A DNA stretch of 64,000 bases. Source: Haloterrigena turkmenica DSM 5511. GTDB lineage: Archaea; Halobacteriota; Halobacteria; Halobacteriales; Natrialbaceae. The position numbers and the translations under genes were made by a program. The DNA lies in contig NC_013745.1 in NCBI RefSeq assembly GCF_000025325.1, positions 1 through 64,000 on the forward strand. Direction: 5' to 3'. The notes below the pieces were generated by a model. That model made no database searches. It was not told the DNA's origin and was given only the letters and a program-made list of their open reading frames with translations. Below, in pieces: positions 28,828 to 55,928 of this stretch. Every line of letters begins with the position of its first letter. Position 1 is the stretch's first letter.

Positions 28828-30642
28828 GTGGTGCAAGATAACGATTCACAGGACAGTGGAACGTACCGACGAGACGTCCTCAAATACGGCGCCGCGGGAG
28901 GGACCGTTCTCGCCGCCGGCTGCCTCGGTGGGAGCAGTAGCACGGATCGATTCCGCGTGTTCGATCCGGAGACGAGCGGGACGCTGCCGTCCCAGCGTCA
29001 CTGTAATCCGTTCAACCCGACCCAGCGCGGGACGTGGCATCCGGGAGCGCTCATCTGCGACCGGCCCGTGATGTACAGTCCGGCGGAGGTCGAAGTCTAC
29101 CCCCTGATCGTGACCGACTGGGAGATGGCCGACGACACCACGCTGGAGATGACGTTCAGCGACGAGTGGACCTGGCACAACGGCGATCAGCTCGTCGCCG
29201 ACGACTGGGTCATGCAGCTGCAGATGACGCTCTCGATTCTCGAGTTCCAGGCCGAAGACGGCGAGCGACCCCACCAGTTCATCGAGTCCGTCGAGGCGCC
29301 CGATGAGCAGACGGCGCGGGTCAGCCTCTACGATCCGATCCCGGAGACGGTCGCGATCCAGAACGCCACCGCCGACATCCTCGGCGACGAGGGTCGCGGC
29401 ATCTTCACCAAACACGACGACGACCAGTGGAGCGAGTGGCACGAGCAACTGCAGAACGCCGACGATTCCGAGATGGAGACCCTCGTCGGTGAGCTCACGT
29501 CGGAGGGGTATCCGAAGGTCGAGGACGCGATCGGAAACGGGCCGTTCCAGGTCGCCGATATCGGGGACAACGTCATGATCTTCGAGAAGTACGAGGACCA
29601 TCCGAACGCTGACAACCTCAATTTCAGCGAATTCTCGATCCATCTCTTCGATACCGATATCCCGACGCAGCCGTACGTCAACGGCGAGGTCGACGGCGCA
29701 CACAACGAGTTCCCCGTGAAGGACGACGTCAAGAGCCAACTCCCCGACGGACACTCCCTCGTCAGGGAAAATCTGTCGACCAACAAGCTGCTCACGTTCA
29801 ACTGCGGTCACAACGTCAACTACGATACGCCCTTCTCGAACGCGAACGTCCGGAAGGCGGTCTGCCACGTCTTCGACCGCCAGCAGGTCTCTGGGGTCCT
29901 CGAGGGCGTCAATCAGCTCTTCGATTGGCCGCCGTGTCGCGTCCCCGGGACCACTCTGGAGAGCGGTTCTCATGACGCTGCGGACTGGGTCGAGGACTTC
30001 ACCAAGTACGGCCAGAACGACACTGAACGCGCCGCCGAACTCCTCGAAGGAGAGGGCTACACGCTCGAAGACGGGCAGTGGTACACGCCGGACGGTGACC
30101 GCTTCGAGATCGATATCATGAACGGCTCCGAGCAGAAGCATATCGGCGTCCTCAAGAATAATCTGAACGAGTTCGGCATCAAGACGAACCAGGAGCAGGT
30201 CGACGATGCGACGTTCGACGAGCGCCGCCACGCCGGCGAGTACGACATGATGCCTGACACGTCGTCCGCTAACGGCGTCCGCGCGATGTGGGAACTGGAC
30301 CTCGTGCCGACCTGGATCCAGTCGATCACGCACTTCGACCCCAACGCGGAGATCCCGATGCCCGTCGGCGATCCCGAGGGCTCGAGCGGGACGAAGACGT
30401 TCAACGTCGAGGAACACATCCGGGACTGGCGCATCTCCGACGACGACCAGTACCACCGTGAGTTGCTGTGGTGGTGGAATCAGAACGTCCCGCAGATGGA
30501 GGCGATGTTCCAGCCCGACGCCGGCGCTTACAACGGCGACAACTGGACGATCGACGGGCCGGACGGCATCGTCCACGGGATCGACGACGCGCTGTACCTC
30601 GTTACCAAGACGGACGAGGCGACGATGGAGTACACGGGCTGA
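28828..30642 (+). CDS. ABC substrate-binding lipoprotein (family 5), copy 1 of 3
   Basis: A 604-residue solute-binding protein of the peptide/oligosaccharide family (SBP_bac_5). A Tat motif YRRDVLKYG and a lipobox ending in Cys (LAAGC) within the first 32 residues show export and lipid anchoring. Family segments include FSDEWTWHNGDQL, GNGPFQVADIGDN and FDRQQVSGVLEG. TTATAAATA at 28797-28805 lies 23-31 bases before GTG 28828; the next codon is also GTG. It is one of three same-length tandem paralogues with separate promoters upstream of one transporter. Pectin-derived oligosaccharides are the likely cargo by context, since DppA/OppA-like proteins in archaea often bind sugars. Confidence 0.92.
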   Translation: MVQDNDSQDSGTYRRDVLKYGAAGGTVLAAGCLGGSSSTDRFRVFDPETSGTLPSQRHCNPFNPTQRGTWHPGALICDRPVMYSPAEVEVYPLIVTDWEMADDTTLEMTFSDEWTWHNGDQLVADDWVMQLQMTLSILEFQAEDGERPHQFIESVEAPDEQTARVSLYDPIPETVAIQNATADILGDEGRGIFTKHDDDQWSEWHEQLQNADDSEMETLVGELTSEGYPKVEDAIGNGPFQVADIGDNVMIFEKYEDHPNADNLNFSEFSIHLFDTDIPTQPYVNGEVDGAHNEFPVKDDVKSQLPDGHSLVRENLSTNKLLTFNCGHNVNYDTPFSNANVRKAVCHVFDRQQVSGVLEGVNQLFDWPPCRVPGTTLESGSHDAADWVEDFTKYGQNDTERAAELLEGEGYTLEDGQWYTPDGDRFEIDIMNGSEQKHIGVLKNNLNEFGIKTNQEQVDDATFDERRHAGEYDMMPDTSSANGVRAMWELDLVPTWIQSITHFDPNAEIPMPVGDPEGSSGTKTFNVEEHIRDWRISDDDQYHRELLWWWNQNVPQMEAMFQPDAGAYNGDNWTIDGPDGIVHGIDDALYLVTKTDEATMEYTG

Positions 30643-30890
30643 TAGCAGCGTTCGCCGACTCGATCGAACCCCGCCTCGGATCGCTGCGATTGACGGATCG
30701 GCGTCAGTGTCGAATCGACACTCCGGCCCTGCGACTCCGTTCGGAGCCGCACTGACTAGCAGTTCGATCCGCTCTCCGGATGACACGAGGCGGTGACGGG
30801 CTGTCTCGGACGACGAAACGCCGACTCGTTTCACCCGCCACTGAGAAAAACCCGTAAATATATGTACACATCTCTAATTCATTAACGAAT
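30643..30890 (+). promoter_or_regulatory. Promoter region of SBP copy 2
   Basis: No gene is present. TAAATATATG at 30855-30864 lies 27-36 bases before ATG 30891 and gives copy 2 its own leaderless promoter. Confidence 0.55.
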
Positions 30891-32705
30891 ATGGAAGACG
30901 GTAATAGCTGTCGGAATGGCGATCACAGTCGAAGAGATGTCCTAAAATACGGCGCTGTGGGTGGCACGGCTCTCGTCGCTGGCTGTCTCGGTGGGGGAAG
31001 TAGCACGGATCGGTTCCGGGTGTTCGATCCGCAGTCGAGCGGGACGCTCCCGTCGGAGCGCCACTGTAATCCGTTCAACCCGACCCAACGCGGGACGTGG
31101 CATCCGGGGGCACTCATCTTCGACCGTCCCGCCATCCACAGTCCGGCGGAAGACGAGGTCTATCCCCTGGTCGCGACCGACTGGGAGATGGTCGACGATA
31201 CCACGCTGGAGTTCACGTTCAGCGACGAGTGGACCTGGCACAACGGCGATCAACTCGTCGCCGACGACTGGGTTATGCAGCTCCAGATGGCGCTCGCGAT
31301 TCTCGAGCACCAGGCCGAGGACGGCGACCGTCCGCACCAGTTCATCGAGTCCGCCGAAGCGCCCGACGAGCAGACGGTACAGATCAGCCTCCACGATCCG
31401 CTCTCGGAGGCGGTCGCGGTCCAGAACGCTATCGCGGACCTCGTCGGCGACGAGAGCCGCGGCATCTTCACCAAACACGACGACGACCAGTGGAGCGAGT
31501 GGCACAGCCAGCTCATGGAGGCCGACGACTCCGAGATGGAATCGCTCCTCGAGGAGCTCACATCGGAGGGATATCCGTTACTCGAGGACGCGATCGGTAA
31601 CGGCCCGTTCGAGGTCGCCGACATCGGTGACAACGTAATGGTCTTCGAGAAGTACGAGGACCATCCGAACGCTGACAACATCAACTTCAGCGAGTACTCG
31701 GTCCACCTCTACGAGAACAACAACCCAACCCAACCGTACGCTAACGGCGAGGTCGACGCCGCACACACGCAGTTCCCAGTCGAAGACGACGTCAAAAGCC
31801 AACTCCCCGGGGGACACACGCTCATCAAGGAGAGCTTCTCGACCAACAAGCTGTTCTCGTTCAACTGCGGACACGACGTTTCCTACGACACGTACCTCTC
31901 GAACGCGAACGTCCGCAAGGCGGTCTGCCACGTCTTCGACCGCCAGCAGGTCACCGAGGTCCTCGAAGGCGTCAACCGGATGTTCGACTGGCCGTCGTGT
32001 CGCGTCCCCGGAAACGTGCTGGACAGCGGTTCCCACGACGCCGCGGAGTGGATTCAGGACTTCACCGAGTACGGCCAGAACGACACCGAACGCGCCGCTG
32101 AACTCCTCGAACGGGAGGGATTCCAGCGAGACGACGGTGCGTGGTATACGCCGGACGGTGACCGGTTCGAGATCGACGTCCTGGGTGGGACCAAACGGAA
32201 GGACTTCGGCGTTCTCAAGGACAATCTGAACGAGTTCGGTATCGCGACGAATCAGGAAGAAGTCGACGACGCGACGCTCTCCGAGCGCCGACAGAACGGC
32301 GAGTTCGACATCGTGCCCGACGGCTCCTCGGCCAACGGCGTCCGGGCGATGTGGGCGCTGGATCTCGTGCCGGGTTGGCTCAGTCAGATCACGCATTTCG
32401 ATCCCAACGCGGAGATTCCGATGCCCGTCGGCGACCCCGAGGGCTCGAGCGGGACGAAGACGTTCAACGTCGAGGAACACATTCGGGAGTGGCAGGTCAC
32501 CGACGACGATCAGTACCACAAGGAACTGATGTGGTGGTGGAACCAGACCGTTCCACAGATGGAAACGATGTATCAGCCCGACGCCGGCGCCTACAACGCC
32601 GACAACTGGGAACTCGACGCGCCCGACGGCGTCATCGACGGCACCGAGGACGCGCTCTACCTCATCCCGAAGATGGACGAGGCGAGCATGGAGTACACGG
32701 GCTGA
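30891..32705 (+). CDS. ABC substrate-binding lipoprotein (family 5), copy 2 of 3
   Basis: A 604-residue paralogue of its two neighbours, most positions identical by eye. It has Tat motif SRRDVLKYG and lipobox LVAGC. Differences cluster in discrete stretches, for example PAIHSPAEDEV (copy 1 PVMYSPAEVEV), YDTYLSNANV (others YDTPFS), FQRDDGAWYTP and VLGGTKRKDF instead of IMNGSE, and LVPGWLSQITHF instead of WIQSI. These may be binding-site changes that alter specificity. The intact frame and own promoter argue against decay after duplication. Confidence 0.92.
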   Translation: MEDGNSCRNGDHSRRDVLKYGAVGGTALVAGCLGGGSSTDRFRVFDPQSSGTLPSERHCNPFNPTQRGTWHPGALIFDRPAIHSPAEDEVYPLVATDWEMVDDTTLEFTFSDEWTWHNGDQLVADDWVMQLQMALAILEHQAEDGDRPHQFIESAEAPDEQTVQISLHDPLSEAVAVQNAIADLVGDESRGIFTKHDDDQWSEWHSQLMEADDSEMESLLEELTSEGYPLLEDAIGNGPFEVADIGDNVMVFEKYEDHPNADNINFSEYSVHLYENNNPTQPYANGEVDAAHTQFPVEDDVKSQLPGGHTLIKESFSTNKLFSFNCGHDVSYDTYLSNANVRKAVCHVFDRQQVTEVLEGVNRMFDWPSCRVPGNVLDSGSHDAAEWIQDFTEYGQNDTERAAELLEREGFQRDDGAWYTPDGDRFEIDVLGGTKRKDFGVLKDNLNEFGIATNQEEVDDATLSERRQNGEFDIVPDGSSANGVRAMWALDLVPGWLSQITHFDPNAEIPMPVGDPEGSSGTKTFNVEEHIREWQVTDDDQYHKELMWWWNQTVPQMETMYQPDAGAYNADNWELDAPDGVIDGTEDALYLIPKMDEASMEYTG

Positions 32706-32950
32706 GCGGAGTCCGCCGTTTCGACCCCTCCGTCGGACTATCGCGACCGATGAATCGGTTCCGGCGATGATTCTGTCTCGGCCGTTACGAAGTCGAACGA
32801 ATTCACACCGGGCGGCAGATCGGTCCTAATTCCAGATGAGCACGAATCGTTGACAGGTTGTATCGAGCGAACGTGTGGCAAACTGGTCCGTCCACCGCTG
32901 GAAACCGTCCAATGGTTAATTATATATATCCCCTTCTATGACTAGGGAGT
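32706..32950 (+). promoter_or_regulatory. Promoter region of SBP copy 3
   Basis: No gene is present. An AT run TTAATTATATATATC at 32916-32930 ends about 21 bases before ATG 32951 and supplies a TATA box at the usual distance. Confidence 0.55.
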
Positions 32951-34765
32951 ATGCCAGAGGGTAACAACTGGCGGAACAGCGGTCCTAGCCGACGAGATGT
33001 CCTGAAATACAGCGCTGTGGGTGGCACAGCCCTCGTTGCCGGATGTCTCGGTGGGAGCAGTAGCACAGATCGATTCCGAGTGTTCGACCCGGAGACGAGC
33101 GGGACGCTGCCGTCCCAGCGTCACTGCAACCCCTACAACCCGACCCAGCGCGGGACGTGGCACCCAGGGGCGCTCATCTTCGACCGACCCGTGATGTACA
33201 GTCCGGCGGAGGACGCGGTCTATCCCCTGATCGCGACCGACTGGGAGATGGCCGACGACACCACGCTGGAGATGACGTTCAGCGAGGACTGGACCTGGCA
33301 CAACGGCGACGACCTCACCGCCGAGGACTGGGTCATGCAGCTGCAGATGTCCCTCGCGATCCTCGAGTACCAGGCGGAGGACGGGGCGCGACCACACCAG
33401 TTCATCGAGTCCGCCGAGGCGCCCGACGAGTACACGGCGCAGATCAACTTCCACGACCCGCTCTCGGAGACAGTCGCGGTCCAGAACGCCACCGCCGATC
33501 TCGTGGGTGACGAGAGTCGCGGCATCTTCACCAATTCCTCGGACGACCAGTGGACCGACTGGCACGAGCAGTTGCAGAACGCCGACGACTCCGGGATGGA
33601 GTCCATCCTCGAGGAGATCACGTCGGAGGGGTATCCGAACCTCGAGGACGCGAACGGGAACGGTCCGTTCCAGGTCGCCGATATCGGGGACAACGTGATG
33701 GTCTTCGAGAAGTACGAGGACCACCCGAACGCCGACAACATCAACTTCAGCGAGTACTCGATGCACCTCTACGAGAACAACAACCCGACCCAGCCGTACG
33801 CAAACGGCGAGGTCGACGCCGCGCACACCCAGTTCCCCGTCGAGGACGACGTCAAGAGCCAGCTCCCCAGCGGGCACACGCTCATCAAGGAGAGCTTCTC
33901 GACCAACAAACTGTTCACGTTCAACTGCGGCCACGACGTCTCTTACGACACGCCCTTCTCGAGCGTGAACGTCCGCAAGGCGGTCTGTCACGTCTTCGAC
34001 CGCCAGCAGGTCACCGAGGTCCTCGAAGGCGTCAACCGGATGTTCGACTGGGCGCCGTGTCGCGTTCCCGGAAACGTGCTGGACAGCGGTACTCACGACG
34101 CCGCGGAGTGGGTCCAGGACTTCCCCAAGTACGGCCAGAACGACACCGAGCGCGCTACCGAACTCCTCGAGGAGGAGGGCTACACGCTCGAGGACGGGCA
34201 GTGGTACACGCCGGACGGAGAGGAGTTCGAGATCAACATCATGAACGGCTCCGAGCGGAAGGACTTCGGCGTTCTCAAACAGAACCTGAACGACTTCGGC
34301 ATCAAGACGAACCAGGAGCAGGTCGACGACGCGACGTTCGACGAGCGCCGACAGAACGGCGAGTACGACATGATGCCCGACGGTTCCTCGGCCAACGGCG
34401 TCCGCGCGATGTGGGCGCTCGATCTCGTGCCGAACTGGATCCAGTCGATCTCGCACTTCGACCCCAACGCGGAGATCCCGATGCCCGTCGGCGACCCGGA
34501 GGGCTCCGAGGGGACGAAGGAGATCAACGTCGAGGAGCACATCCGTCAGTGGCAGGTCACCGACGATGATCAGTACCACAAGGAACTGATGTGGTGGTGG
34601 AACCAGACCCTCCCGGAGATGGAAGTGATGTTCCAGCCCGACGCCGGCGCCTACAACGCCGACAACTGGGAACTCGACGCGCCGGACGGCATCATCGACG
34701 GCACCGAGGACGCGCTCTACCTCATCCCAAAGACGGACGAGGCGAGCATGGAGTACATCGGGTAA
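32951..34765 (+). CDS. ABC substrate-binding lipoprotein (family 5), copy 3 of 3
   Basis: The third 604-residue paralogue, with Tat motif SRRDVLKYS and lipobox LVAGC. It is closer to copy 2 in the middle (LYENNNPTQPYANGEVDAAH) and to copy 1 near residues 395-475 (IMNGSE, LVPNWIQSI). That mosaic pattern could come from gene conversion between copies. Like the others it should hand substrate to the permeases encoded at 35226-37333. Confidence 0.92.
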   Translation: MPEGNNWRNSGPSRRDVLKYSAVGGTALVAGCLGGSSSTDRFRVFDPETSGTLPSQRHCNPYNPTQRGTWHPGALIFDRPVMYSPAEDAVYPLIATDWEMADDTTLEMTFSEDWTWHNGDDLTAEDWVMQLQMSLAILEYQAEDGARPHQFIESAEAPDEYTAQINFHDPLSETVAVQNATADLVGDESRGIFTNSSDDQWTDWHEQLQNADDSGMESILEEITSEGYPNLEDANGNGPFQVADIGDNVMVFEKYEDHPNADNINFSEYSMHLYENNNPTQPYANGEVDAAHTQFPVEDDVKSQLPSGHTLIKESFSTNKLFTFNCGHDVSYDTPFSSVNVRKAVCHVFDRQQVTEVLEGVNRMFDWAPCRVPGNVLDSGTHDAAEWVQDFPKYGQNDTERATELLEEEGYTLEDGQWYTPDGEEFEINIMNGSERKDFGVLKQNLNDFGIKTNQEQVDDATFDERRQNGEYDMMPDGSSANGVRAMWALDLVPNWIQSISHFDPNAEIPMPVGDPEGSEGTKEINVEEHIRQWQVTDDDQYHKELMWWWNQTLPEMEVMFQPDAGAYNADNWELDAPDGIIDGTEDALYLIPKTDEASMEYIG

Positions 34766-34845
34766 CACCGTCCCGTCACGACCGCGACGACGACACACTG
34801 TCCCCGCAGACTAAGATTTAAGAGCGTCTCGGGGAATGAGTTCGT

Positions 34846-35040
34846 ATGGGATTCCTCCAGTCCGCTTCGCAGATCGTTCTCGGCGTTAACTTTCTGTTCT
34901 TGCTACTGCTCGGGTTCTCGTTTCTCTTTATCGAACCCGGGACGGGCCCGTTCGTCATCGCGGTACTCACGCTCATTCCAGTCGTCCTCTCGTTAGTCGC
35001 GAGCGTCGCGGTGATCTATACCGGCTGGGAGCCGTTCTGA
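34846..35040 (+). CDS. Small two-TM protein linked to ABC importer
   Basis: A 64-residue protein with two hydrophobic helices, about residues 8-28 (QIVLGVNFLFLLLLGFSFLF) and 36-58 (FVIAVLTLIPVVLSLVASVA), joined by IEPGTGP and ending YTGWEPF. gatttaag at 34814-34821 lies 25-32 bases before ATG 34846, so it is a real transcription unit. It is not assigned to a family. A protein of the same size, topology and ending (YFGWKPF) accompanies the second importer at 49619-49831, which suggests a function tied to the transporters. Confidence 0.75.
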   Translation: MGFLQSASQIVLGVNFLFLLLLGFSFLFIEPGTGPFVIAVLTLIPVVLSLVASVAVIYTGWEPF

Positions 35041-35225: not shown

Positions 35226-36218
35226 ATGGTAACGATAGACTGGCGTATCAGGAGACTCGGGCAGGCGGCGTTCACGGTATGGGCCGTGATAACGCTCTCA
35301 TTCGCGTTGGTGCGGCTAATGCCCGGGAACATGATGGGTGCGATGGTAACCCGACTGGCCCGGCAGGGTATCAACCCGGCGCGGGCTCGCGAACTCGTCG
35401 AACTTCGGATGACGATCGATCCCGACGCACCGCTCTTGCCCGCGTACGTTTCCTACGTTTCGAACACGCTGCAGGGGGATCTGGGACAGTCCGTCTACTA
35501 CAGTCGGCCGGTCGTCGATATCATCGCGGAGGCCGTTCCGTGGACGTTGTTCGTGCTGAGCTGGGCGGTCTTCATCAGCTTCTTTATCGGCATCTCCATC
35601 GGTGCGCTGATGGCCTACTGGGAGGGCGGAAAGCTGGACGTCGGGCTGACGTCGTACGCCGTCCTGATGGGATCGATCCCGTTCTACGTGCTCGCGATCC
35701 TCCTGTTGATCTTCCTGGCGTACCGACTGAGCTGGTTTCCCACCGGCGGTCGCCAGCCGATCGCTACGGATCCGGGGTTCAATCTGGTGTACATCAGCGG
35801 GATCGTTCGCCACGCTGCACTACCGGTCATCTCCATGCTCGTCGCCTCCGGCGTCGCCTCGCTGGGAATGCGCGGAAACAGTATCCGCGTCCTCGGTGAG
35901 GACTACCTCCGCGTCGCCCGTCTCCGCGGTCTCTCGGACATTACGATCTCTACCCAGTACGTCGCCCGCAACGCCGTCCTGCCGATGTACACGACCCTGC
36001 TGATCAGTATCGGCGAGATGTTCGGCGGGTCGATCGTCTTAGAGCAGGTGTTCCAGTACCGCGGAGTCGGCTGGTACATGCTGTCCGCGACCCACCAGCG
36101 CGACTACCCGCTCATGATGGGCGGATTCATGGTCATTACGGTGGCGATGGTCATCTCTCTGCTGCTGGCCGACCTGACCTACGGATACGTCGACCCGCGA
36201 GCACGGAGGTCACAATGA
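35226..36218 (+). CDS. ABC permease, DppB type
   Basis: A 330-residue inner permease of the dipeptide/oligopeptide family with about six TM helices. The N-terminal RLGQAAFTVWAVITLSFALVRLMPG is typical of DppB, and the EAA-type loop is seen in DYLRVARLRGLSD. GGSIVLEQVFQYRGVGWYML and LADLTYGYVDPRAR are family signatures. It overlaps the next permease by ATGA (36215-36218), which indicates translational coupling. With three binding proteins upstream and a fused ATPase downstream, it forms the core of importer 1. Confidence 0.95.
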   Translation: MVTIDWRIRRLGQAAFTVWAVITLSFALVRLMPGNMMGAMVTRLARQGINPARARELVELRMTIDPDAPLLPAYVSYVSNTLQGDLGQSVYYSRPVVDIIAEAVPWTLFVLSWAVFISFFIGISIGALMAYWEGGKLDVGLTSYAVLMGSIPFYVLAILLLIFLAYRLSWFPTGGRQPIATDPGFNLVYISGIVRHAALPVISMLVASGVASLGMRGNSIRVLGEDYLRVARLRGLSDITISTQYVARNAVLPMYTTLLISIGEMFGGSIVLEQVFQYRGVGWYMLSATHQRDYPLMMGGFMVITVAMVISLLLADLTYGYVDPRARRSQ

Positions 36219-37333
36219 CGCGAAATTCAGAGACACCAACGGACGACGACGAACGGATGGATTTCGAGGACGCAATCGTCAGCGACTCCGAGACGGACGC
36301 CGACGAACGGATCGAAACCGACGGCGGCGTCGGCACGCCCTTCGAGGTCGTCTCCGAGTACGAGGAGACGCGACGCGACCGCTACCGCAAGCTGTACGAC
36401 GCGTACATCTACGCGCCGATCTCTATCATTTGGCGCGACTGGCGCGCCCGAATCGGCTTCACGATCGTCGCGCTCTACCTGTTCATGGGGACCGTCGGAA
36501 CGCTGTTCATCGAACCGACGGGCGTGACCGAAGGGCCAGCACTCGCCGCGCCGTTCGAGACCATGGAGTACCCCCTCGGGACGGACAATCAGGGGCGTGA
36601 CCTGCTCTCGCAGACGGTCCACTCGACATCGACGATCCTCAAGATGGTCCTCTCGGGTGCGGTGTTTACCGTCGGGATCGGGACGATTATCGGTTCCATC
36701 GCCGGCTACAAGGGCGGCATGACCGACACGGTCCTGAGTTCGATCACCGACGTGTTCATCAACATCCCCGGCTTCCCGCTCGTGATGGTGCTGGGACTCA
36801 TGTTCGACGACCAAATTCTCGGCAACCCGTTCGCGATCGGCATATTGCTGAGCGTCGCGTCGTGGGGCGGCCTCGCCCGGGCGATCAGATCGCAGATGCT
36901 CACGCTCCGGGAGGAGTCGTTCGTCGAGGCTTCGCAGGCGATGGGGATCGGGACGCCGACGATCGTCTTCAAGGAGATCGTTCCGCACCTGATGCCGTTC
37001 GTGGTGATCAACCTCACGAACGCCGGCCGAAAGGTCATCTTCGAGGCGGTCGCCCTGTACTACCTCGGGATCCTCCCCTTCAAGAACCTGAACTGGGGAA
37101 GTATCCTGAACCAGGCCTACGGGGCGAACGCGCACGCCCGTCCCGACGCGATCCACTGGTTCCTCGTCCCCATGTTCTCGATCGTGTTCATCTCGGTCGG
37201 GCTGACCCTGCTCGGGCAGTCCCTAGACCGGGTGTTCAACCCCCGCGTCCGGGCCCGACACGAGAAGACGACCGCCGACGTCGAGACCGAAGGCGACGGC
37301 GAAACGCAGACGCAAGATGCGATGGGTGTCTAA
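36215..37333 (+). CDS. ABC permease, DppC type
   Basis: A 372-residue permease. About 75 acidic cytoplasmic residues precede the first TM helix (IGFTIVALYLFMGTVGTLFI), followed by YPLGTDNQGRDLLSQTVHST, the DppC/OppC periplasmic signature. The ATPase-contact loop is EASQAMGIGTPTIVFKEIVPH. The tail is acidic. A strong Shine-Dalgarno (ggaggt, 36206-36211) precedes ATG 36215. One base separates its stop from the ATPase start. Confidence 0.95.
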   Translation: MTRNSETPTDDDERMDFEDAIVSDSETDADERIETDGGVGTPFEVVSEYEETRRDRYRKLYDAYIYAPISIIWRDWRARIGFTIVALYLFMGTVGTLFIEPTGVTEGPALAAPFETMEYPLGTDNQGRDLLSQTVHSTSTILKMVLSGAVFTVGIGTIIGSIAGYKGGMTDTVLSSITDVFINIPGFPLVMVLGLMFDDQILGNPFAIGILLSVASWGGLARAIRSQMLTLREESFVEASQAMGIGTPTIVFKEIVPHLMPFVVINLTNAGRKVIFEAVALYYLGILPFKNLNWGSILNQAYGANAHARPDAIHWFLVPMFSIVFISVGLTLLGQSLDRVFNPRVRARHEKTTADVETEGDGETQTQDAMGV

Positions 37334-37334
37334 C

Positions 37335-39533
37335 ATGACCGTTTCCGAAACCGACTACCAACCCGAACCGGCACAAGGTGACTCGATCCTCGAAATACGC
37401 AACGCGTCCGTCACGTTCGATATGGACCGCGGCGAATCGCGCGTCCTCGACGACGTCGATCTGGATATCGAGCGAAACGAAATCCTCGGCGTCGTCGGCG
37501 AGAGCGGCAGCGGCAAATCCATGCTCGCGTCGGCGCTGCTCGACGCGATCGTCGACCCGGGCGTCCTCTACGGGGACATCACGTACCACCCCCCGGAGGG
37601 CAGCCCGATCGATATCCTCAATCTCGACAAGCAGGGGCTCAAGGAACTCCGCTGGGAGGAGATCTCGATGGTGTTCCAGGGCGCGATGAGTTCGTTCAAT
37701 CCCGTTCGCAAGATCAAAACCCACTTCGTCGAGACACTCGACGCTCACGACTACGACATCGACGAGGGCATGGAGCGGACGAAGGACATCCTCTCGGACC
37801 TCTATCTGGACCCCGAGCGCGTCCTTGACTCCTACCCGCACGAGCTCTCGGGCGGGATGAAACAGCGCGCGCTCATCGCGTTGAGCCTGGTGCTCAAGCC
37901 GGAGGTACTGGTGATGGACGAGCCGACGGCCGCGCTGGACCTCCTCATGCAGCGATCGATCATCTCGCTGATCCAGGAGATCAAGGAGGAGTACGATTTG
38001 ACGATCGTCTTCATCACCCACGACCTGCCGCTGGTCGCGGACATCGCCGACCGGATCGGGGTCCTCTATGCCTTCGAGTTCGTCGAACTCGGGCCGACCG
38101 ACGAGATCCTCGAGAACGCCGCCCACCCCTACACGCGACTACTACTGAAGTCGACGCCAAACCTCGAGGCGCCGATCGAGACCATGCAGCCGGTCGAGGG
38201 GTCGGCGCCGGACCCGGTGAACGTCCCGACGGGCTGTTCGTTCCACAGGCGGTGTCCCCTCGCCACCCAGGAGTGTCGGGACGTCGATCCCGGTCCGTAC
38301 GACGCCGGCGCGAGCCACATCTCTCATTGTCATCACTGGGAGCAGGCGCGCGAGGAGATTCCGATGTCGTACGATCTCGAGTCGATCGACGCGGGCTCCG
38401 AGACGGCGAAGACCGGCGTGGGAGATACGGCCTCGCGGACCGCGTCGGCCGAACCGGTCGTCTCGCTCGACGACGTCGAGGTCCACTTCGAGAAGGAGAA
38501 GGGCTTCCTCGACATGTTCGACGAGCCCGAAGTCGTCGAGGCCGTCGACGGCGTCTCGATGGACATCTACGAGAAGGACGTGGTCGTCCTCGTCGGCGAG
38601 TCCGGCTGCGGGAAGACCACGCTGGGCAAGACGGCGGTCGGCCTCCAGGAGCCGACCGGCGGGAGCGTCAACTACCGCGGCAACGACATCTGGGACGTCA
38701 AGGCGGGCAACGGTGACGGTTCGATGTCGTGGGACGAGATCCGCCGATCGCTCCAGATCGTCCACCAGGATCCGGGGAGCGCTCTGAACCCCCATCGCCG
38801 CGTCAAGGCGAGCCTCGAGGCGCCGCTCAAGCGCTGGAACGACGATCTCGACGGCAACGACCGGAAACAGCGCATCCTGAGCCTGCTCGAGCACGTCGGG
38901 ATGTCGCCGCCGGAGGACTACATCGATCGCTACCCACACCAGCTCTCGGGCGGCGAGCAACAGCGCGTCGCGCTCATCCGGGCGATGCTGATGAACCCAG
39001 ACGTCATCATGGCCGACGAGCCGGTCAGCGCGCTCGACGTCTCGCTGCGCGTCGAGATGATGGATCTCATGATCCAGCTGCAGGACACGTTCAACACGTC
39101 GTACCTGTTCGTCTCGCACGACCTCTCGAACGCGCGGTACATCGCCGAGAAGACCGGCGGTCGGATCGGCGTCGTCTACCTCGGCCGACTGGTCGAGATC
39201 GGTCCGCCGGACGAGATCATCCACAACCCCCAGCATCCCTACACGCAGGCGCTGTGCTGGGCGACGCCGGAACTCGGCGCCGACAACGACGAGGAGTCGC
39301 CGATCCGCGAGATCGACATTCCCGACCCGACGAACCCGCCGAGCGGCTGTCGCTACCACACGCGCTGTGCCAAGGCCCGCGAGGTCTGTCGGAACCAGGA
39401 TCCGGCGGCCTACGACATCCCCGACGACGACTTACACGAGGCCGCGTGTTTCCGCGTCTTAGACGACCACGAGTACTGGGGCAGCGAGTCGATCACCGAG
39501 GACAACGAACTGTTCGCACAGGGCGACGACTGA
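37335..39533 (+). CDS. Fused double ATPase (DppD-DppF), oligopeptide type
   Basis: A 732-residue protein carrying two complete ABC domains. Domain 1 has Walker A GESGSGKS at residues 55-62, signature LSGGMKQRA and Walker B VLVMDEPTAALD. Domain 2 has Walker A GESGCGKT near residue 420, signature LSGGEQQRV and Walker B VIMADEPVSALD. Each ends with the oligopeptide C-terminal region containing clustered Cys (CSFHRRCPLATQEC with a later SHC; CRYHTRCAKAREVC with a later AC), which in DppD-type proteins can hold an iron-sulfur cluster. ATG 37335 follows the permease stop by one base. In importer 2 the same two ATPases are separate proteins, so this is a fusion of a normal pair. Confidence 0.93.
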   Translation: MTVSETDYQPEPAQGDSILEIRNASVTFDMDRGESRVLDDVDLDIERNEILGVVGESGSGKSMLASALLDAIVDPGVLYGDITYHPPEGSPIDILNLDKQGLKELRWEEISMVFQGAMSSFNPVRKIKTHFVETLDAHDYDIDEGMERTKDILSDLYLDPERVLDSYPHELSGGMKQRALIALSLVLKPEVLVMDEPTAALDLLMQRSIISLIQEIKEEYDLTIVFITHDLPLVADIADRIGVLYAFEFVELGPTDEILENAAHPYTRLLLKSTPNLEAPIETMQPVEGSAPDPVNVPTGCSFHRRCPLATQECRDVDPGPYDAGASHISHCHHWEQAREEIPMSYDLESIDAGSETAKTGVGDTASRTASAEPVVSLDDVEVHFEKEKGFLDMFDEPEVVEAVDGVSMDIYEKDVVVLVGESGCGKTTLGKTAVGLQEPTGGSVNYRGNDIWDVKAGNGDGSMSWDEIRRSLQIVHQDPGSALNPHRRVKASLEAPLKRWNDDLDGNDRKQRILSLLEHVGMSPPEDYIDRYPHQLSGGEQQRVALIRAMLMNPDVIMADEPVSALDVSLRVEMMDLMIQLQDTFNTSYLFVSHDLSNARYIAEKTGGRIGVVYLGRLVEIGPPDEIIHNPQHPYTQALCWATPELGADNDEESPIREIDIPDPTNPPSGCRYHTRCAKAREVCRNQDPAAYDIPDDDLHEAACFRVLDDHEYWGSESITEDNELFAQGDD

Positions 39534-40764: not shown

Positions 40765-41081
40765 GCCGATCCCTCCGCCAGATCGCCGCGGCCGCGGTTG
40801 CTCTCGCAGTTGTGGATGTGCACCCACTCGCCCGGTTCGATCCGCTCGGTGGCCGTCCCGATGACCTCGCCGTACTTGCGGACCGGCTCGCCGGCGTCGA
40901 TCGCCATTACGGCGAGCTTGTGGCCGAACGCGATCGGTTCGGCGACCTCGAGGGCCGATCGATCGCCCGGCAGGTCGTCGGTCTCGATGGACCGGCCGGC
41001 CTCGAGATCGGCGATCGCCGTCGCCACGGTGTCGCTCTCGGCCAGCAGCACCGCCGCGTCGTCGAGCACGGCGCCCTTCAC
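40761..41081 (-). CDS. SAF-domain subunit of UxaA-type dehydratase
   Basis: A 106-residue SAF-domain protein corresponding to the N-terminal domain of altronate and galactarate dehydratases. The signatures are IAFGHKLAVMAIDAGEPVRKYG and ERIEPGEWVHIHNCES. In most bacteria this domain is fused to or encoded beside the large domain. GTG 41081 overlaps the stop of the upstream gene (GTGA), and its own stop overlaps the next GTG, so three genes are coupled. It should associate with the 395-residue large subunit. Confidence 0.88.
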   Translation of the reverse strand: MKGAVLDDAAVLLAESDTVATAIADLEAGRSIETDDLPGDRSALEVAEPIAFGHKLAVMAIDAGEPVRKYGEVIGTATERIEPGEWVHIHNCESNRGRGDLAEGSA

Positions 41082-47134: not shown

Positions 47135-47275
47135 ATGTCTAACTTCTTCACCGCGGATTCACTACTGAGAACAGAATCTGATTTAGTACCACAGAACAGC
47201 TTTCGTGGAACCGAGGACCGTAGCTGTCGGTCCGTTGCGTATTCGGTTCCGAACGCGCCAACTACACGTGGGTGA
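47135..47275 (+). CDS. Possible 46-codon ORF with TATA box
   Basis: ATG 47135 opens a short frame (starting MSNFFTADSLLRTESD) ending at TGA 47273-47275. TTATAAATA at 47102-47110 lies 25-33 bases upstream, the spacing seen for real genes here. The product has no recognised domain and is less acidic than its neighbours. It may be a small gene, a leader or chance; support is only the promoter. Confidence 0.25.
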   Translation: MSNFFTADSLLRTESDLVPQNSFRGTEDRSCRSVAYSVPNAPTTRG

Positions 47276-47369
47276 TTAGATCGCGATCATCGTTGGTAGG
47301 GTTCAGATCGAGGATCGGTCGCGAAATAGATCCGTCGATACCGAACGGCCTCTGGCAATCATCCCCACG

Positions 47370-47400: not shown

Positions 47401-47406
47401 ACGAGC

Positions 47407-49618: not shown

Positions 49619-49831
49619 CTAGATCTCGTCGAGAAACTCGAACGGCTTCCAGCCGAAGTAGAGCCCCGCCGTGGCGATGGCGATCATGACACCCTGCACG
49701 CTCAGCGCCATGATCGATATTACGCGACTTTCCGATCCGGGTTCTTGGAACGGGAACAACGCCAGCAGGATGACCGCCAGCGTCAGGGTAATCGAGAGGA
49801 GCGCCCGAAAGACGGCTTCGCTCGTATCCAT
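49619..49831 (-). CDS. Small two-TM protein linked to ABC importer 2
   Basis: A 70-residue protein with two hydrophobic helices, about residues 9-28 (ALLSITLTLAVILLALFPF) and 38-60 (ISIMALSVQGVMIAIATAGL), joined by QEPGSESR and ending YFGWKPFEFLDEI. The topology, linker EPG and GWxPF ending match the 64-residue protein at 34846. It follows the ATPase gene by 51 bases on the same strand and has its own TATA-like element (minus strand, about 49856-49863). No family is recognised. Confidence 0.75.
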   Translation of the reverse strand: MDTSEAVFRALLSITLTLAVILLALFPFQEPGSESRVISIMALSVQGVMIAIATAGLYFGWKPFEFLDEI

Positions 49832-49882
49832 TGGACTCTTGTTTCGATGACGGCGTAATAGAAGTACTGGAACGAGAAACCG

Positions 49883-51007
49883 CTACTGAACCGGTTCGTC
49901 CGCGAGTTCGGTCTGATCAGCGTCCGATTCGCTCGAGTCGTCCTCGAGTTTCCGGCTGTCCCAGTACTCGTGATCGTCGAGTTCCCGGAAGCAGGTCACC
50001 GTGTGGTCCTCGTCGCCGTCGACCGACACCGCTTCGGGCGTGTTCCCCTTGCAGGCCTCGCGAGCTTTGGGACATCGCGTGTGGAACCGACAGCCCGACG
50101 GCGGGTTCCGCGGGTCCGGAACGTCGATTTTTCGGAGCGGCGATTCGGTCTCGTCGTCGATATCGGGGTCCAGGTTCGGCGTCGCCCACACCAGCGCCTT
50201 GGTGTAGGGGTGTTTCGGGTTCTCCAGAACCTCGTCGATGGGTCCGAGTTCGACGAGCTCGCCGAGGTACATAATGCCGATCCGACCGTCGGACTTCCCG
50301 GCGACGTAACTGGCGTTCGAGAGGTTATGGCTGATGAACAGGAACGACGTGTTGAACTCCTCCTGTAACTCGAGCATGAGGTCCATCATGTCGATCCGCA
50401 GGGAGACGTCGAGCGCGCTCACCGCCTCGTCGGCGAGGATGAGGTCGGGGTTCATCAACAGCGCTCGGATCAGCGCGACGCGTTGCTTCTCGCCGCCCGA
50501 AAGCTGGTGGGGGAACCGCTTGGCGTAGTCCTCCGGCGGGGACATGCCGACCCGCGAGATCATTTCGTGGATTCGCTCCCGCCGTTCGAACGAGTCCATC
50601 TCCGGATGCCGAAGTTTGAGCGGAGCCCCGAGGGAGTGTTGTACCGTCTTGTTCGGATTGAGCGACGCGCCCGGATCCTGCGGGATGATCTGGAGGGACT
50701 GGCGGATCTCGTCGTACGGGATCTCGACGTTTCCGTCCTTGTCCTTGGCCTTCCAGACGTCCTGACCCTTGTAGGTCACCGAACCGCTGGTCGGGCGCTG
50801 GACGCCGATGGCGGTCTTTCCGAGGGTCGACTTCCCACAGCCGCTCTCGCCGACCAGCGCGACGACGTCGTTCTCGGGAATGTCGAGCGAGATGCCGTCG
50901 ACTGCTTTGACGATGTCGGTCTCGCCTCTGAGCTTGGAGAGGAACGACTGCTCGGACTCGAAATGTACTTCCACGTTCTGTAGCGAGACGAGATGGTCCT
51001 CACTCAT
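49883..51007 (-). CDS. ABC ATPase, DppF type
   Basis: A 374-residue ATPase of importer 2. Walker A is GESGCGKS, signature LSGGEKQRV, Walker B LILADEAVSALD (Ala replaces the usual Pro after DE), and the C-terminal oligopeptide region has CRFHTRCPKAREAC with a later TCF. The tail is acidic. The gene overlaps the DppD-type gene by eight bases, which indicates coupled translation. The equivalent domain is fused to its partner in importer 1. Confidence 0.94.
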   Translation of the reverse strand: MSEDHLVSLQNVEVHFESEQSFLSKLRGETDIVKAVDGISLDIPENDVVALVGESGCGKSTLGKTAIGVQRPTSGSVTYKGQDVWKAKDKDGNVEIPYDEIRQSLQIIPQDPGASLNPNKTVQHSLGAPLKLRHPEMDSFERRERIHEMISRVGMSPPEDYAKRFPHQLSGGEKQRVALIRALLMNPDLILADEAVSALDVSLRIDMMDLMLELQEEFNTSFLFISHNLSNASYVAGKSDGRIGIMYLGELVELGPIDEVLENPKHPYTKALVWATPNLDPDIDDETESPLRKIDVPDPRNPPSGCRFHTRCPKAREACKGNTPEAVSVDGDEDHTVTCFRELDDHEYWDSRKLEDDSSESDADQTELADEPVQ

Positions 51008-52052
51008 TGACCTTCACCTCCTGAAGGGTCAGCGGAACCGTCTCTGGTACCGTATCGACGTAGTGACATGCTGCAACGTGGCCGTCCTCCGGGGTGTCCG
51101 ACTCGAGGGGTGGATCGTCGCGTTCGCAGGTCGCGTCGGCCAGTGGACAGCGCGGATGGTACGAACACCCGTTCGGTACCGACACCGGATCCGGGGCCGC
51201 GCCCTCGATCGGTCGCATCTGCTCGCGGGGCGTCTCCAGGTTCGGCGTCGAGTTGAGCAGCGCCCGCGTGTAGGGGTGTTTCGCTTCCGTCAGCACCTCG
51301 TACGCGGGGCCGACCTCGACGAACTCGAAGGCGTAGAGAACCGCGATCCGATCGGCGAGGTTCGCGACCAGCGGCAGGTCGTGGGTGATGAAGACGATCG
51401 TCAGGTCGCGCTCGTCCGCGATCTGCCTGATCAACCGGATGATACTGCGCTGCATCAGGAGGTCCAGCGCGGCCGTCGGCTCGTCCATCACCAGCACCTC
51501 CGGCTTGAGCACCAGGCTCAACGCGATGAGTGCGCGCTGGCTCATTCCGCCCGACAGTTCGTGCGGATAGGAGTCTAACACCTGATCCGACTCGAGGTAG
51601 AGATCCGAGAGGAGGTCTTCGGCGCGCTCCATCCCCTCCTCGACATCGTAGTCGTGGACGGCCAGCGTCTCACGGAAGTGGTCCCGGATCGACATCGTCG
51701 GGTTGAACGAACTCATCGCGCCCTGGAACACCATCGAGATCTCCTCCCAGCGAACCTGCTTGATCTCGCTTTGGGAGAGACTGAGCAGGTCGACGGGCTT
51801 CTCCGGTTCGGGGTAGAAGGTGATATCGCCGGTGAGCTGTCCGGGATCGACGACCGCATTGAGCAGCGCGGAGGCGAACATCGATTTCCCGCTTCCGCTT
51901 TCACCGACGACGCCGAGGACTTCGCCTCGTTCTACGTCGATGTCTACCTCGTTCAGTACTTTCGATTCCCCCCGATCCATGTCGAACGAGACGGTCGTGT
52001 CCCGAACCTCGAAGATCGGATCCTCGACGGTCTTCGTGCGTTTTCGCTGCAT
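51000..52052 (-). CDS. ABC ATPase, DppD type
   Basis: A 350-residue ATPase with Walker A GESGSGKS, signature LSGGMSQRA, Walker B VLVMDEPTAALD and the C-terminal CSYHPRCPLADATC plus AACH cysteine cluster typical of the oligopeptide family. Two bases separate its start from the permease stop upstream. It is very similar to the first half of the fused ATPase at 37335. Confidence 0.95.
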   Translation of the reverse strand: MQRKRTKTVEDPIFEVRDTTVSFDMDRGESKVLNEVDIDVERGEVLGVVGESGSGKSMFASALLNAVVDPGQLTGDITFYPEPEKPVDLLSLSQSEIKQVRWEEISMVFQGAMSSFNPTMSIRDHFRETLAVHDYDVEEGMERAEDLLSDLYLESDQVLDSYPHELSGGMSQRALIALSLVLKPEVLVMDEPTAALDLLMQRSIIRLIRQIADERDLTIVFITHDLPLVANLADRIAVLYAFEFVEVGPAYEVLTEAKHPYTRALLNSTPNLETPREQMRPIEGAAPDPVSVPNGCSYHPRCPLADATCERDDPPLESDTPEDGHVAACHYVDTVPETVPLTLQEVKVNE

Positions 52053-52054
52053 TG

Positions 52055-53047
52055 TTATTCCTCGTAGGGCGCAGTGTCATCGACCGCGTCCGCGTGGCGC
52101 GCCCGGATACGCGGATTGAACAGTTTCTCCGTTCCCTGTGCGAACAGCACCAGCCCGAACGAGAGGCCGACGATCGCTATCATCGGGAAGAGTAGCCAGT
52201 AAATGCCATCTAACGAGTATATCGCCGCATTGGTAAAGGCCTCGTTAAGCGTGATCCCCCAGTTATTCGAGAAGCCGCTGAGGAAACCGAGGTAGAACAG
52301 CGCGACCGAACCGAAGATGACCCCGCGCGCGGAGTTGACGAAGTTGATCAGCACGTAGGGCATGATGTTCGGCAGGACGTCGTCCACGATGATTTTCGGC
52401 GTCGACGCTCCCATGATCCGGGAGACCTCGACGTAGGAGTGGTCCCTGATCGAGAGCACCTGCGACCTGATCGACCGCGCGAGGCCGGCCCACGAGTTGA
52501 TCACGAGGAAGACGCCGATCACATACGGACTCTCCGGTTCGAAGACGGCGATCAGGAGGATGATCAGGGGTAAGCCAGGGATGGTCATGGCGATGTCCGT
52601 GAAGGTGGTGAGCACGCTATCGACGGTCCCCCCCTTGTAGCCCGAGACGGTTCCGACGATCGTCGCCATGATTGTCGAGAACACCGCGCCGGCCAGAATC
52701 ATCTTCAGCACCGGCGGCGTCGAGTAGACGATATCCGAGAGGAGGCTCGTCCCGAGGTTGTCCGTTCCGAGCGGATACGACATACTCTGGAACGGACCCG
52801 TAAGTCGCGGCCCCTGTCCCTGTGTCGGGGCGGGGACGAGGTAGAGGCCGACCGTGCCCATCAGTACGTAGAACAGGATGATGAGCGAGCCGGTCTTCGT
52901 TCGCCAGTCATTCCAGGCGATCCGTAGCGGGGCGAGGACGGTCACGTCGAGCCACTCCCTGTATAGTTCCGAACGGGTCGCCGCCGATCCGTCACTCGTG
53001 CTGTCGCGGTCGTCGGTCGCGTCGAACGTTGAATTGGTTTCAGCCAT
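52055..53047 (-). CDS. ABC permease, DppC type
   Basis: A 330-residue permease with an acidic, Ser/Thr-rich N-terminus, TM helix SLIILFYVLMGTVGLYLVPA, the DppC signature MSYPLGTDNLGTSLLSDIVYST, and the ATPase-contact loop EVSRIMGASTPKIIVDDVLPN. It is shorter at its N-terminus than the importer 1 counterpart. It lies 13 bases after the DppB-type gene on the same strand. Confidence 0.95.
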   Translation of the reverse strand: MAETNSTFDATDDRDSTSDGSAATRSELYREWLDVTVLAPLRIAWNDWRTKTGSLIILFYVLMGTVGLYLVPAPTQGQGPRLTGPFQSMSYPLGTDNLGTSLLSDIVYSTPPVLKMILAGAVFSTIMATIVGTVSGYKGGTVDSVLTTFTDIAMTIPGLPLIILLIAVFEPESPYVIGVFLVINSWAGLARSIRSQVLSIRDHSYVEVSRIMGASTPKIIVDDVLPNIMPYVLINFVNSARGVIFGSVALFYLGFLSGFSNNWGITLNEAFTNAAIYSLDGIYWLLFPMIAIVGLSFGLVLFAQGTEKLFNPRIRARHADAVDDTAPYEE

Positions 53048-53060
53048 CGAATGTCACCTC

Positions 53061-54074
53061 TCAGTAGGCCTCCTTGCCTTCACCCGCACTGACTCGCGGA
53101 TCGATCAGTCCGTAGGTGAGATCCGCGATCAGGATACAGATCAGCACGGCAGCGGTGATGACGATGAAGATCCCCATCATGAGCGGGTAATCGCTGTTGT
53201 TCAGCGCCTGCAGGAGGTAGTTTCCGAGACCGGGGTAGGCGAAGATCTGTTCCAGGATAATCGATCCACCGAACATGAATCCGACGGAGATCATCAGGTT
53301 GGTGTACATCGGCAGCAGCGCGTTCCGACCGACGTACCGGACCGCGATCCGGCGTCCGGGGACGCCACGGAGGTGTGCCACCCGGATGTAGTCCTCTCCG
53401 ATCTCCTGGATCGAGTTCCCTCGCATCGTGATCGCGACCCCGCCGAATCCGGTGAGGACGAGGGACGCGATCGGAAGCGTTGCGTGGTAGAATACGTCGG
53501 CGATAAATATGGGTGTCAGTCCCGGCTCTAACCCGACGGCGTAGTTCCCCGACTGCGGGAAGATACTCAGCTGGATGGAGAAGACGTACACCAGAAGCAG
53601 CGCCGCGACGTAGTAGGGAACGGAGTTCATGAACATCGAGAGGACCGTCGACCCGGTGTCGAACTGACTGCCCTCTCGGTACGCCATGACTGCGCCGAGC
53701 ACGATACCCATCGCGAACGTGAGGAGAATCGCCATCGTGAGCAGGAAGATCGTCCACGGGGCGGCCTGGATGATGATATCGCTGACGCTCCGGGTAGGGT
53801 ACGACATCGACTCTCCCAGATCCCCTTGCAGGATGTTCGTAACGTAATCGAAGTACTGAACGTACACCGGGGTCGAGGGATCGTAGTTCGTGTACGTCTC
53901 GGTCAGCGAGTTGATCTCGGCCATGCTCACGCCCTGCGACCCTCGGTTCCGCATGACTTGTGCCCTGATGTGGTCCGCCGGTCCGCCCGGTATCGCCCGT
54001 ATCAGTCCAAATGTTATCGTGATTACCGCGACAAACGTAACGAATGCTTGTCCGAGCCGCTTTATTATGTACAT
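53061..54074 (-). CDS. ABC permease, DppB type
   Basis: A 337-residue permease. It starts MYIIKRLGQAFVTFVAVITI, the DppB N-terminal helix; GGPADHIRAQVMRNRGSQGV is the extracellular insert; the coupling loop is DYIRVAHLRGVPG; and GGSIILEQIFAYPGLGNYLL is the family signature. A TATA-like actattataagg on the minus strand upstream may give the permease-ATPase genes a promoter separate from that of the binding protein. Confidence 0.95.
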   Translation of the reverse strand: MYIIKRLGQAFVTFVAVITITFGLIRAIPGGPADHIRAQVMRNRGSQGVSMAEINSLTETYTNYDPSTPVYVQYFDYVTNILQGDLGESMSYPTRSVSDIIIQAAPWTIFLLTMAILLTFAMGIVLGAVMAYREGSQFDTGSTVLSMFMNSVPYYVAALLLVYVFSIQLSIFPQSGNYAVGLEPGLTPIFIADVFYHATLPIASLVLTGFGGVAITMRGNSIQEIGEDYIRVAHLRGVPGRRIAVRYVGRNALLPMYTNLMISVGFMFGGSIILEQIFAYPGLGNYLLQALNNSDYPLMMGIFIVITAAVLICILIADLTYGLIDPRVSAGEGKEAY

Positions 54075-54152: not shown

Positions 54153-55928
54153 TCAGTCCTTCGCCTGCAGCTCACCGTTCCGCGGGAACCACCAGAGGGG
54201 CCACTTCGACTGGTACTTCGGGGAGTCCGGCTCCGGGACCTCCCAGTCGTCCGTGTAGAACCAGACCGGGTCGTTGATCTCGTTGAGTTGGAGCATGGGG
54301 ACCGTCTGGTTAGTGATCCACGCGAGCTGATCGGTGAGCTCGGTCGCTCTCTCCTCGTCCTGTGCGACGAGCAACTCGTCCATCAGACCGCGCGGATCGA
54401 CCGACTGGAGGTCGCCATCGGGTTCGCCCATCGGCGGAGCCTCGAGGTTCTCGGGGTCGAGGTTCATGAACTCCGTGTCGATGTTGTAGTACATGTCGAA
54501 GACGTAGTACGGACTGGATCGCTGGAGCGTCCATCCCGTCGACGCCACCTTGAAGTTCGCCGCGGTGTAGTGGTCGGCCCAGTACGCAGACGCCTCGATC
54601 CGCTGCAGTTCGGCACCGATACCTTCGTTCGTGAGATTATCGACGATCGTCTCGTAGACCGGATGCCAATCGGTATATCCCGCAGGGACCTTGATCGTCA
54701 GTTCGAACGGGTCACCGTTGGGACGGTACCACGTACCGTCGTCCTTCTGGTACCCTTCGTTGCGGAGCAGTCGTCGACCGCGCTCCGGATCGTCGTAGCG
54801 GTAGAGCTGTTCGGCCATCTCGTCGGAGACCTTGTCCTCCCATCGGTTGGTCTGTTCGTTCTGGCCGTCGATGTTTCCGACGAGCCCGCTCGGCGCCTCG
54901 ACCGGCTGTCCGAGCCGGCCGTAGTTGTCCGCGCAGGCCTGCCTGTCGATGAACTCGCTGACGGCCTGTCGAACCCGGATGTTACTGAAGTCGTCGTCCT
55001 CGTGGTTGAAGGGAAGCGAGTGCCCCCACAGCGCGGGGAGTTGCGCGTTCAGGAGGTCGTCGGGTGCCTGCTCGAAGACCGTTTCGGGTGCGGAGAAATT
55101 CCGAATTCCGTCGACTTCGCCGCCGAGTAGCACGCTCGCGGTGTCGGTCGAAACCTTGTGGAGCTCCCAGTTCTCCCAGTTGATGTTGTCCGCGTCGGGG
55201 TGGTGTTCGTACAGGGTCATCTTGAGGTGGCGGTTGTCCCGCTCCTCGAACTGGAAGGGACCGTTCCCCTTCACCTTCGACTCGTCGAACGAGTCGTTAC
55301 GGAGGTCACTCCGGATGTCGCTGATCTCGTCGTCGCTCGTCGCGTCCTCCCACCGCTCGACGTAGTCCTTGTACAGTCGGAACGGCGTCTCGAGCCAGTA
55401 GTAGTTCAGTCCGTCCCGGAACAGTTGCTCGTTGATCGTTCCGTCGAGGGTGAGTTCGACGGACTTGTCACCGACCCGCTCGATGTCCGTCCAGAGAGTC
55501 GAGATCGTGTCACCGATGATCGCGTCGGTGACGAGTTTCGTGTAGAGGTCGTCGGCGTCGACCGGATCTCCCGGGTCACCGTTGTGCCACGTGAGACCGT
55601 CCCGAACCTTCAGAACGGCAGTCTCGCCCTCGAACTCCTCGATGGAGACCGCGTACGACTCGAACGAGCTGTCGTTGATGAAGTACCGCTGGAGCTGGTC
55701 GCTCTGCATCGCGTGCGAGAACGGGTTCTGCAGATTGAGATGGTTGAACTGATAGTTCGTCGGATCCACCGTTATCGGCTCGACGAACGTGTTTGTCTCC
55801 CCCGATGTGCCCCCGAGACAACCGGCCATTGCCATCGCGCCTCCCATCGCTGTGCCGCGAAGGAGGTGTCTTCGAGAGATCGCTTGCCGGTTCGACTTAC
55901 CCAATTTTCCCTTGCCATGTGATGGCAT
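54153..55928 (-). CDS. ABC substrate-binding lipoprotein of importer 2 (family 5)
   Basis: A 591-residue binding protein. The Tat motif SRRHLLRG is at residues 18-25 and the lipobox Cys in MAMAGC near residue 38. Family segments are VRDGLTWHNGDPGD, VKGNGPFQFEERDN and AVSEFIDRQACADNYGR. It is only distantly similar to the three paralogues of importer 1, so it probably carries another substrate, perhaps arabino-oligosaccharides given the GH51 genes on both sides. A TATA-like gttttttatctc (minus strand, 55949-55960) lies 21-32 bases upstream of ATG 55928. Confidence 0.92.
   Translation of the reverse strand: MPSHGKGKLGKSNRQAISRRHLLRGTAMGGAMAMAGCLGGTSGETNTFVEPITVDPTNYQFNHLNLQNPFSHAMQSDQLQRYFINDSSFESYAVSIEEFEGETAVLKVRDGLTWHNGDPGDPVDADDLYTKLVTDAIIGDTISTLWTDIERVGDKSVELTLDGTINEQLFRDGLNYYWLETPFRLYKDYVERWEDATSDDEISDIRSDLRNDSFDESKVKGNGPFQFEERDNRHLKMTLYEHHPDADNINWENWELHKVSTDTASVLLGGEVDGIRNFSAPETVFEQAPDDLLNAQLPALWGHSLPFNHEDDDFSNIRVRQAVSEFIDRQACADNYGRLGQPVEAPSGLVGNIDGQNEQTNRWEDKVSDEMAEQLYRYDDPERGRRLLRNEGYQKDDGTWYRPNGDPFELTIKVPAGYTDWHPVYETIVDNLTNEGIGAELQRIEASAYWADHYTAANFKVASTGWTLQRSSPYYVFDMYYNIDTEFMNLDPENLEAPPMGEPDGDLQSVDPRGLMDELLVAQDEERATELTDQLAWITNQTVPMLQLNEINDPVWFYTDDWEVPEPDSPKYQSKWPLWWFPRNGELQAKD

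Follow-up and report, generated by a model that had tools for sequence, protein, structure and literature searches.

The window analysed here, a 64,000 bp stretch of the Haloterrigena turkmenica DSM 5511 genome, contains two ABC importer gene sets, each with a small hairpin protein gene beside it. Importer 1, on the forward strand, opens with three tandem paralogues of SBP_bac_5-type solute-binding lipoproteins (28828..30642, 30891..32705 and 32951..34765). The first two are identified by the ABC substrate-binding annotation of the syntenic locus in Haloterrigena salifodinae, and the third by its own SBP_bac_5 match (E 6.6e-40). We note that all three, 604 amino acids each, stand ahead of a single translocator (28828-34765, +), and that related loci have one to three of them. 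They are followed by a DppB/OppB-like permease gene of a haloarchaeal clade (35226..36218; BPD_transp_1 E 3.1e-30, and 317 bits to the corresponding importer 2 permease), a DppC/OppC-like permease gene (36215..37333; BPD_transp_1 E 8.3e-27) and a gene for a fused double ATPase of 738 amino acids (37317..39533) with two ABC_tran and two oligo_HPY stretches. Importer 2 lies on the reverse strand, where the domain scan finds an SBP_bac_5 solute-binding protein with a Tat-like signal (54153..55928) and a DppC-like permease (52055..53047); between them is the DppB-like permease (53061..54074; BPD_transp_1 E 5.9e-38), whose best solved relative is E. coli DppB (8z1v, E 4e-39) and which served as the query that defines the clade. 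Its ATPases are encoded by separate genes, unlike the importer 1 fusion: the first (51000..52052) has ABC_tran and oligo_HPY domains, and the second (49883..51007) is of the oligopeptide/dipeptide type, its ATPase match lying directly upstream of the second small gene. Both importers pass the curated cut-offs for SBP_bac_5, two BPD_transp_1 domains and ABC_tran/oligo_HPY, and so are of the Opp/Dpp type.

The small gene of importer 1 (copy 1; 34846..35040, +) encodes the 64 amino acid protein MGFLQSASQIVLGVNFLFLLLLGFSFLFIEPGTGPFVIAVLTLIPVVLSLVASVAVIYTGWEPF, with the C-terminus GWEPF; the solute-binding match ends 93 bp upstream of it and the permease match begins 188 bp downstream. That of importer 2 (copy 2; 49619..49831, -) encodes 70 amino acids, including FQEPGSE and then YFGWKPFEFLDEI, and comes at the end of its gene set, behind the ATPase genes, rather than lying in the receptor-permease gap. 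A sequence-only reading of this DNA had placed a 64-residue two-helix protein between the importer 1 receptor and permease genes and a 70-residue protein of the same topology at the second importer. The open reading frame, the domains of its neighbours and an AlphaFold2 (AF2) hairpin model confirm the former, and the latter holds as well, the two copies being 36% identical over 39 amino acids (E 9e-7, in one pairwise comparison). In a tblastn search of the 5.44-Mb genome with copy 1, copy 2 ranks second (E 0.0035). The family profile described below finds exactly four places in that genome at E<=1, every one at an importer locus: copy 1 (1e-25), copy 2 (8e-25) and two further places (2e-6 and 7e-4). 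Haloterrigena salina, the sole match in a collection scan with copy 2, has a relative 94% identical to it.

These small open reading frames are protein-coding sequences under purifying selection: dN/dS is roughly 0.1-0.3 between copies of related genomes (about 0.2 for copy 1), and substitutions between the relatives compared are concentrated at third codon positions. Across 64 upstream regions A+T peaks at about -34 to -25 of the chosen ATG (roughly 0.64 vs 0.4), which is supportive rather than proof of a promoter because the start codons were picked partly by position; TTTAWW-like boxes occur in many of these regions. An A+T peak at this spacing is expected of a haloarchaeal leaderless promoter. 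Copy 1 has a TATA-like TTTAAG at 34817..34822 (+), -29 to -24 of its ATG, and the upstream sequence AGATTTAA is common to two close relatives; copy 2 has a TATA-like TATTA at 49856..49860 (-), -29 to -25, and its upstream sequence TACTTCTATTACG is retained in three of four close relatives. The box before copy 1 suggests that this gene has its own leaderless transcript, and many members of the family appear to be transcribed in this way from a TATA-like box.

The locus syntenic to importer 1 in H. salifodinae, where the small gene is annotated as a hypothetical protein, also contains rhamnogalacturonan acetylesterase, UxaA-type and dihydrodipicolinate-synthase-family genes, and importers of the importer 2 type in Halopiger lie amid alpha- and beta-L-arabinofuranosidase genes. 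Since genes for polysaccharide use neighbour these matching loci, both window importers likely take up oligosaccharides, a substrate assignment drawn from neighbouring genes only. In the window itself, several open reading frames beside importer 1 (39643-42265, -) correspond to three UxaA family hydrolase genes of the syntenic locus (L159), and alpha-L-arabinofuranosidase-like genes, judged by the matching Halopiger cluster (L163), flank importer 2 (47272-49605, +, and 59258-60784, -).

A family of small hairpin proteins

Copy 1 alone, used as the query against 292 genomes of the class, found about 80 further places; the 14-kb surroundings of these matches were taken regardless of gene content, and an iterated profile then brought the confirmed family to 77 members, the two window copies among them. 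For all but two of the 75 members elsewhere an importer gene lies inside the fetched stretch, the exceptions being a gene in a Halorhabdus tiamatea arabinan cluster and a 48 amino acid remnant. The proteins are about 60-80 amino acids long and have in common two hydrophobic helices that flank the sequence [E/D]PG[T/S]xx[Y/F]V, within which P31 and G32 are conserved in more than 90% of members. The proposed shared motif thus survives in part: the EPG turn extends through the family as a near-invariant [E/D]PG[T/S], but the GWxPF ending is not a general mark, since a C-terminal W-[DE]-P-F belongs only to the subfamily that includes the window copies. Another subfamily has a Cys close to each end and a basic tail. 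In its alignment (A3: L066:6982-7191, L112:7035-7265, L106:6912-7142 and others) the Cys near both ends are invariant and are predicted to be on the cytoplasmic side, and a metal or disulfide role for the pair is possible.

AF2 models are helical hairpins in both subfamilies (pLDDT 94.8 and 87.5), and the copy 1 model, with pLDDT 94.8, has helices at residues 3-26 and 34-59. Lysine and arginine are nearly absent from the turn and commoner in the tails of the family alignment, so both tails may be cytoplasmic with the turn outside, although in the W-x-P-F subfamily the tails are acidic on balance. When 54 members were scanned against Pfam and NCBIfam, and 14 more against Pfam, only scattered weak matches came back, those with scores being far under the curated cut-offs. 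For a hairpin no fold match is expected, and the AF2 model had none in the PDB at E<=0.001; the family profile found no PDB sequence below E 0.2. Outside Halobacteria a 295-genome sample of the phylum gave one marginal match (E 9.5e-4), and no description of the family was found in open-licence papers. The haloarchaeal hairpin family is thus real and uncatalogued, with no Pfam or NCBIfam model that fits it on the matches scored, and these scans and that literature bear out the suggestion that the protein was undescribed.

Linkage to one importer clade

The permease clade was defined by bit score to the importer 2 DppB-like permease in 26 genomes: 68 clade permeases score 257-725 bits, ordinary Dpp/Opp permeases score 178 bits or less and none falls between, a gap that was read off the same data. 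Far from lying mostly away from ABC importers, the finding that would have spoken against an importer subunit, 55 of the 60 family genes found by the profile in these genomes have a clade permease within 8 kb (about 1.1% expected by chance), and the other five are 9-22 kb from one on the same contig; none of the 82 ordinary Dpp/Opp permeases listed has a family gene within 8 kb. Conversely, 55 of the 68 clade permeases have a family gene at the 8-kb cut-off, and inspection of the remaining 13 reveals one for 11 of them, either close by or within the same gene region. The two clade importers with no recognisable member after inspection are G000:C2, in the genome of the window itself, and L134. 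At G000:C2 the family gene was lost and the importer kept, and a near-identical sister locus still has the gene, so the gene is not strictly needed at each locus. Comparison of L137 10310-10739 with L128 10373-10397 indicates that a small deletion removed it from the G000:C2 importer, the flanks being largely alignable. A different hydrophobic open reading frame of 93 amino acids adjoins the ATPase there (L128 1020-1301, -; G000:C2 near 349019-349300); it is 96% conserved in the sister locus L137 and does not match the family profile.

Among the 292 haloarchaeal genomes the family (E<=0.001) is present in 103 and the permease clade (E<=1e-60) in 105, with both in 101 (Fisher p 8e-71, phylogeny ignored); counted by genus, the family occurs in 42 and the clade in 43 of 77. 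Inspection covered four of the six discordant genomes: in two permease-only ones a diverged member lies some 4 kb away from the importer, and of the two family-only ones one has a chance match inside a larger protein and the other the 48 amino acid remnant. The hairpin family is therefore exclusively tied to one haloarchaeal importer clade. We note that the nearest bacterial importers, in Rhizobium etli, Thalassospira and Streptomyces (36-39% permease identity), have no family member.

The position of the small gene relative to its importer varies: 38 lie after the ATPase genes, 12 are convergent with them, 11 are divergent from the solute-binding protein gene, 10 precede it and 8 lie between it and the permease gene. 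That the arrangement changes while the company stays argues for a functional tie, and against a frozen operon or an RNA leader element. In Halorhabdus tiamatea the small gene is 16.6 kb from the permease and still inside the same arabinan cluster. None of the members was found naturally fused to an importer subunit; four matches in long open reading frames are apparent upstream read-through frames in which the domain is C-terminal and no importer part is present.

A proposed accessory component and its alternatives

We think it probable that the small protein is a dedicated accessory membrane component of this clade of haloarchaeal Opp/Dpp-type importers, with the permease as its probable binding partner. 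The suggestion that it is an undescribed accessory subunit gains support from the clade linkage and the 292-genome co-occurrence, with which a regulator or an assembly factor would also be compatible. In the mechanism we propose, both ends of the two-helix hairpin would probably be cytoplasmic, with the E-P-G-[T/S] turn outside; the hairpin would most likely pack against the DppB-like permease and might stabilise the complex or tune the coupling of the binding protein and ATPases to it, and in many members a leaderless promoter of its own could set its dose apart from that of the operon. Over 77 loci the distance correlation with the small protein (Mantel) is 0.37 for DppB, 0.31 for DppC, 0.28 for the solute-binding protein and 0.20 for the ATPase. 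The DppB value remains at 0.22-0.32 under control for each other subunit, and the others fall to 0.02-0.08 with DppB controlled. These values hint at the DppB-like permease as the partner, the correlation being modest and partly due to linkage, and subunit rates and match limits differing. The fuller proposal, that a haloarchaeal Opp/Dpp branch largely devoted to plant-polysaccharide oligosaccharides has a sixth, hairpin membrane subunit that contacts the DppB-like permease, is plausible, and we put it forward tentatively.

Among the other explanations, the one with the most weight is a small membrane protein with a regulatory role, which would bind the importer conditionally, inhibit or retune it, and not be a standing subunit; we regard it as unlikely. 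The TATA-like promoter of their own in many members, whatever their orientation to the operon, would suit it, and there is an archaeal precedent in the 61 amino acid sP36, which inhibits AmtB1 in Methanosarcina (PMC10714827); however, the small protein is found at nearly every clade importer, where a patchier distribution might be expected of a regulator, and its conserved parts are the turn and the membrane core, not a sensing tail. A role with the extracellular binding protein, as an anchor, maturation factor or docking aid for the lipoprotein rather than an action on the translocator, would account for the predicted outside position of the conserved turn and for the roughly 30 of 99 members that adjoin a solute-binding protein gene, 8 of them between it and the permease gene. 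We consider this improbable: the correlation with the binding protein drops to 0.03 once DppB is controlled, whereas that with DppB stays at 0.25 under the reverse control, 38 members directly follow the ATPases, and the binding proteins already have Tat-like signals themselves.

An equally small chance attaches to the protein serving some other membrane step of the polysaccharide clusters, its link to the importer being through the cluster. The window importers do lie within uronate/rhamnogalacturonan and arabinoside clusters, and the distant H. tiamatea gene is in an arabinan cluster, but the small protein tracks the importer clade within genomes that have several of its importers as well as over the set of 292 genomes, and in most loci only 70-200 bp separate it from an importer gene. 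That it is a spurious open reading frame, or a detached piece of a split permease gene, is already contradicted, and we give this next to no credence. GC-rich DNA easily yields short hydrophobic open reading frames, and a superficially similar LFIEPTG stretch follows the first helix of PermC1; against this, the frame is under purifying selection and the match of the DppB-like permease to E. coli DppB is full-length. A split permease or an internal duplication of an importer subunit was also rejected by profile-profile comparison with PermB, PermC, the solute-binding protein and the ATPase (<1% probability).

If the sixth-subunit proposal is right, the protein would be the first example of a small integral subunit in any binding-protein-dependent Opp/Dpp importer, and would belong to the sugar uptake machinery so far missing in haloarchaea that live on polysaccharides. 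A ten-genome haloarchaeal survey recognised no sugar transporters in Halorhabdus utahensis, a polysaccharide degrader, and uncharacterised families were supposed to do this work (PMC3102087); the occurrence of clade importers with the small protein inside arabinan and rhamnogalacturonan clusters, including that of Halorhabdus tiamatea, bears on this gap. The small protein would in addition make the importer branch easy to recognise.

Comparison with known systems

The importers that accompany the family have the same parts as E. coli DppABCDF, namely an SBP_bac_5 protein, two BPD_transp_1 permeases and two oligo_HPY ATPases. The E. coli system is described as having five subunits, with no mention of a small protein, and works without one (PMC12136057), whereas nearly all the haloarchaeal clade importers have the linked hairpin gene. 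A strictly linked additional membrane protein across an archaeal class would change the five-part list for Opp/Dpp systems, which are much-studied nutrient importers. The clade permeases are only about 30% identical to those of ordinary Dpp/Opp importers, and the likely substrates of the window importers are sugars.

NCBIfam NF033233, the twin transmembrane helix small protein, is also a small protein with two helices; it matches 9 of 54 members at E<=0.1 (best E 1.7e-4), and the single member listed with a score reaches 15.7 bits where the cut-off is 49. AcrZ, KdpF and the CydX-type small subunits are single helices. They resemble the hairpin proteins in being tiny, hydrophobic and attached to a large membrane machine, and differ in being bacterial, unrelated in sequence and associated with other partners. 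CbiN and NikN, the two-helix extra parts of cobalt and nickel ECF importers, have a common topology and dissimilar sequences (PMC2667541). Like the hairpin proteins they are small two-transmembrane-helix proteins linked to an ABC importer, but their importers are of another class that has no solute-binding protein. Pfam CbiN matched none of the 68 members scanned (E<=0.1), and no CbiM/Q/O or NikM/Q/O genes were found beside the small genes, whose neighbours are SBP_5-type importers instead. By analogy, the hairpin family, although a member of neither group, may work in the manner of CbiN and NikN or of AcrZ, the tiny modulator of AcrB (PMC7267776).
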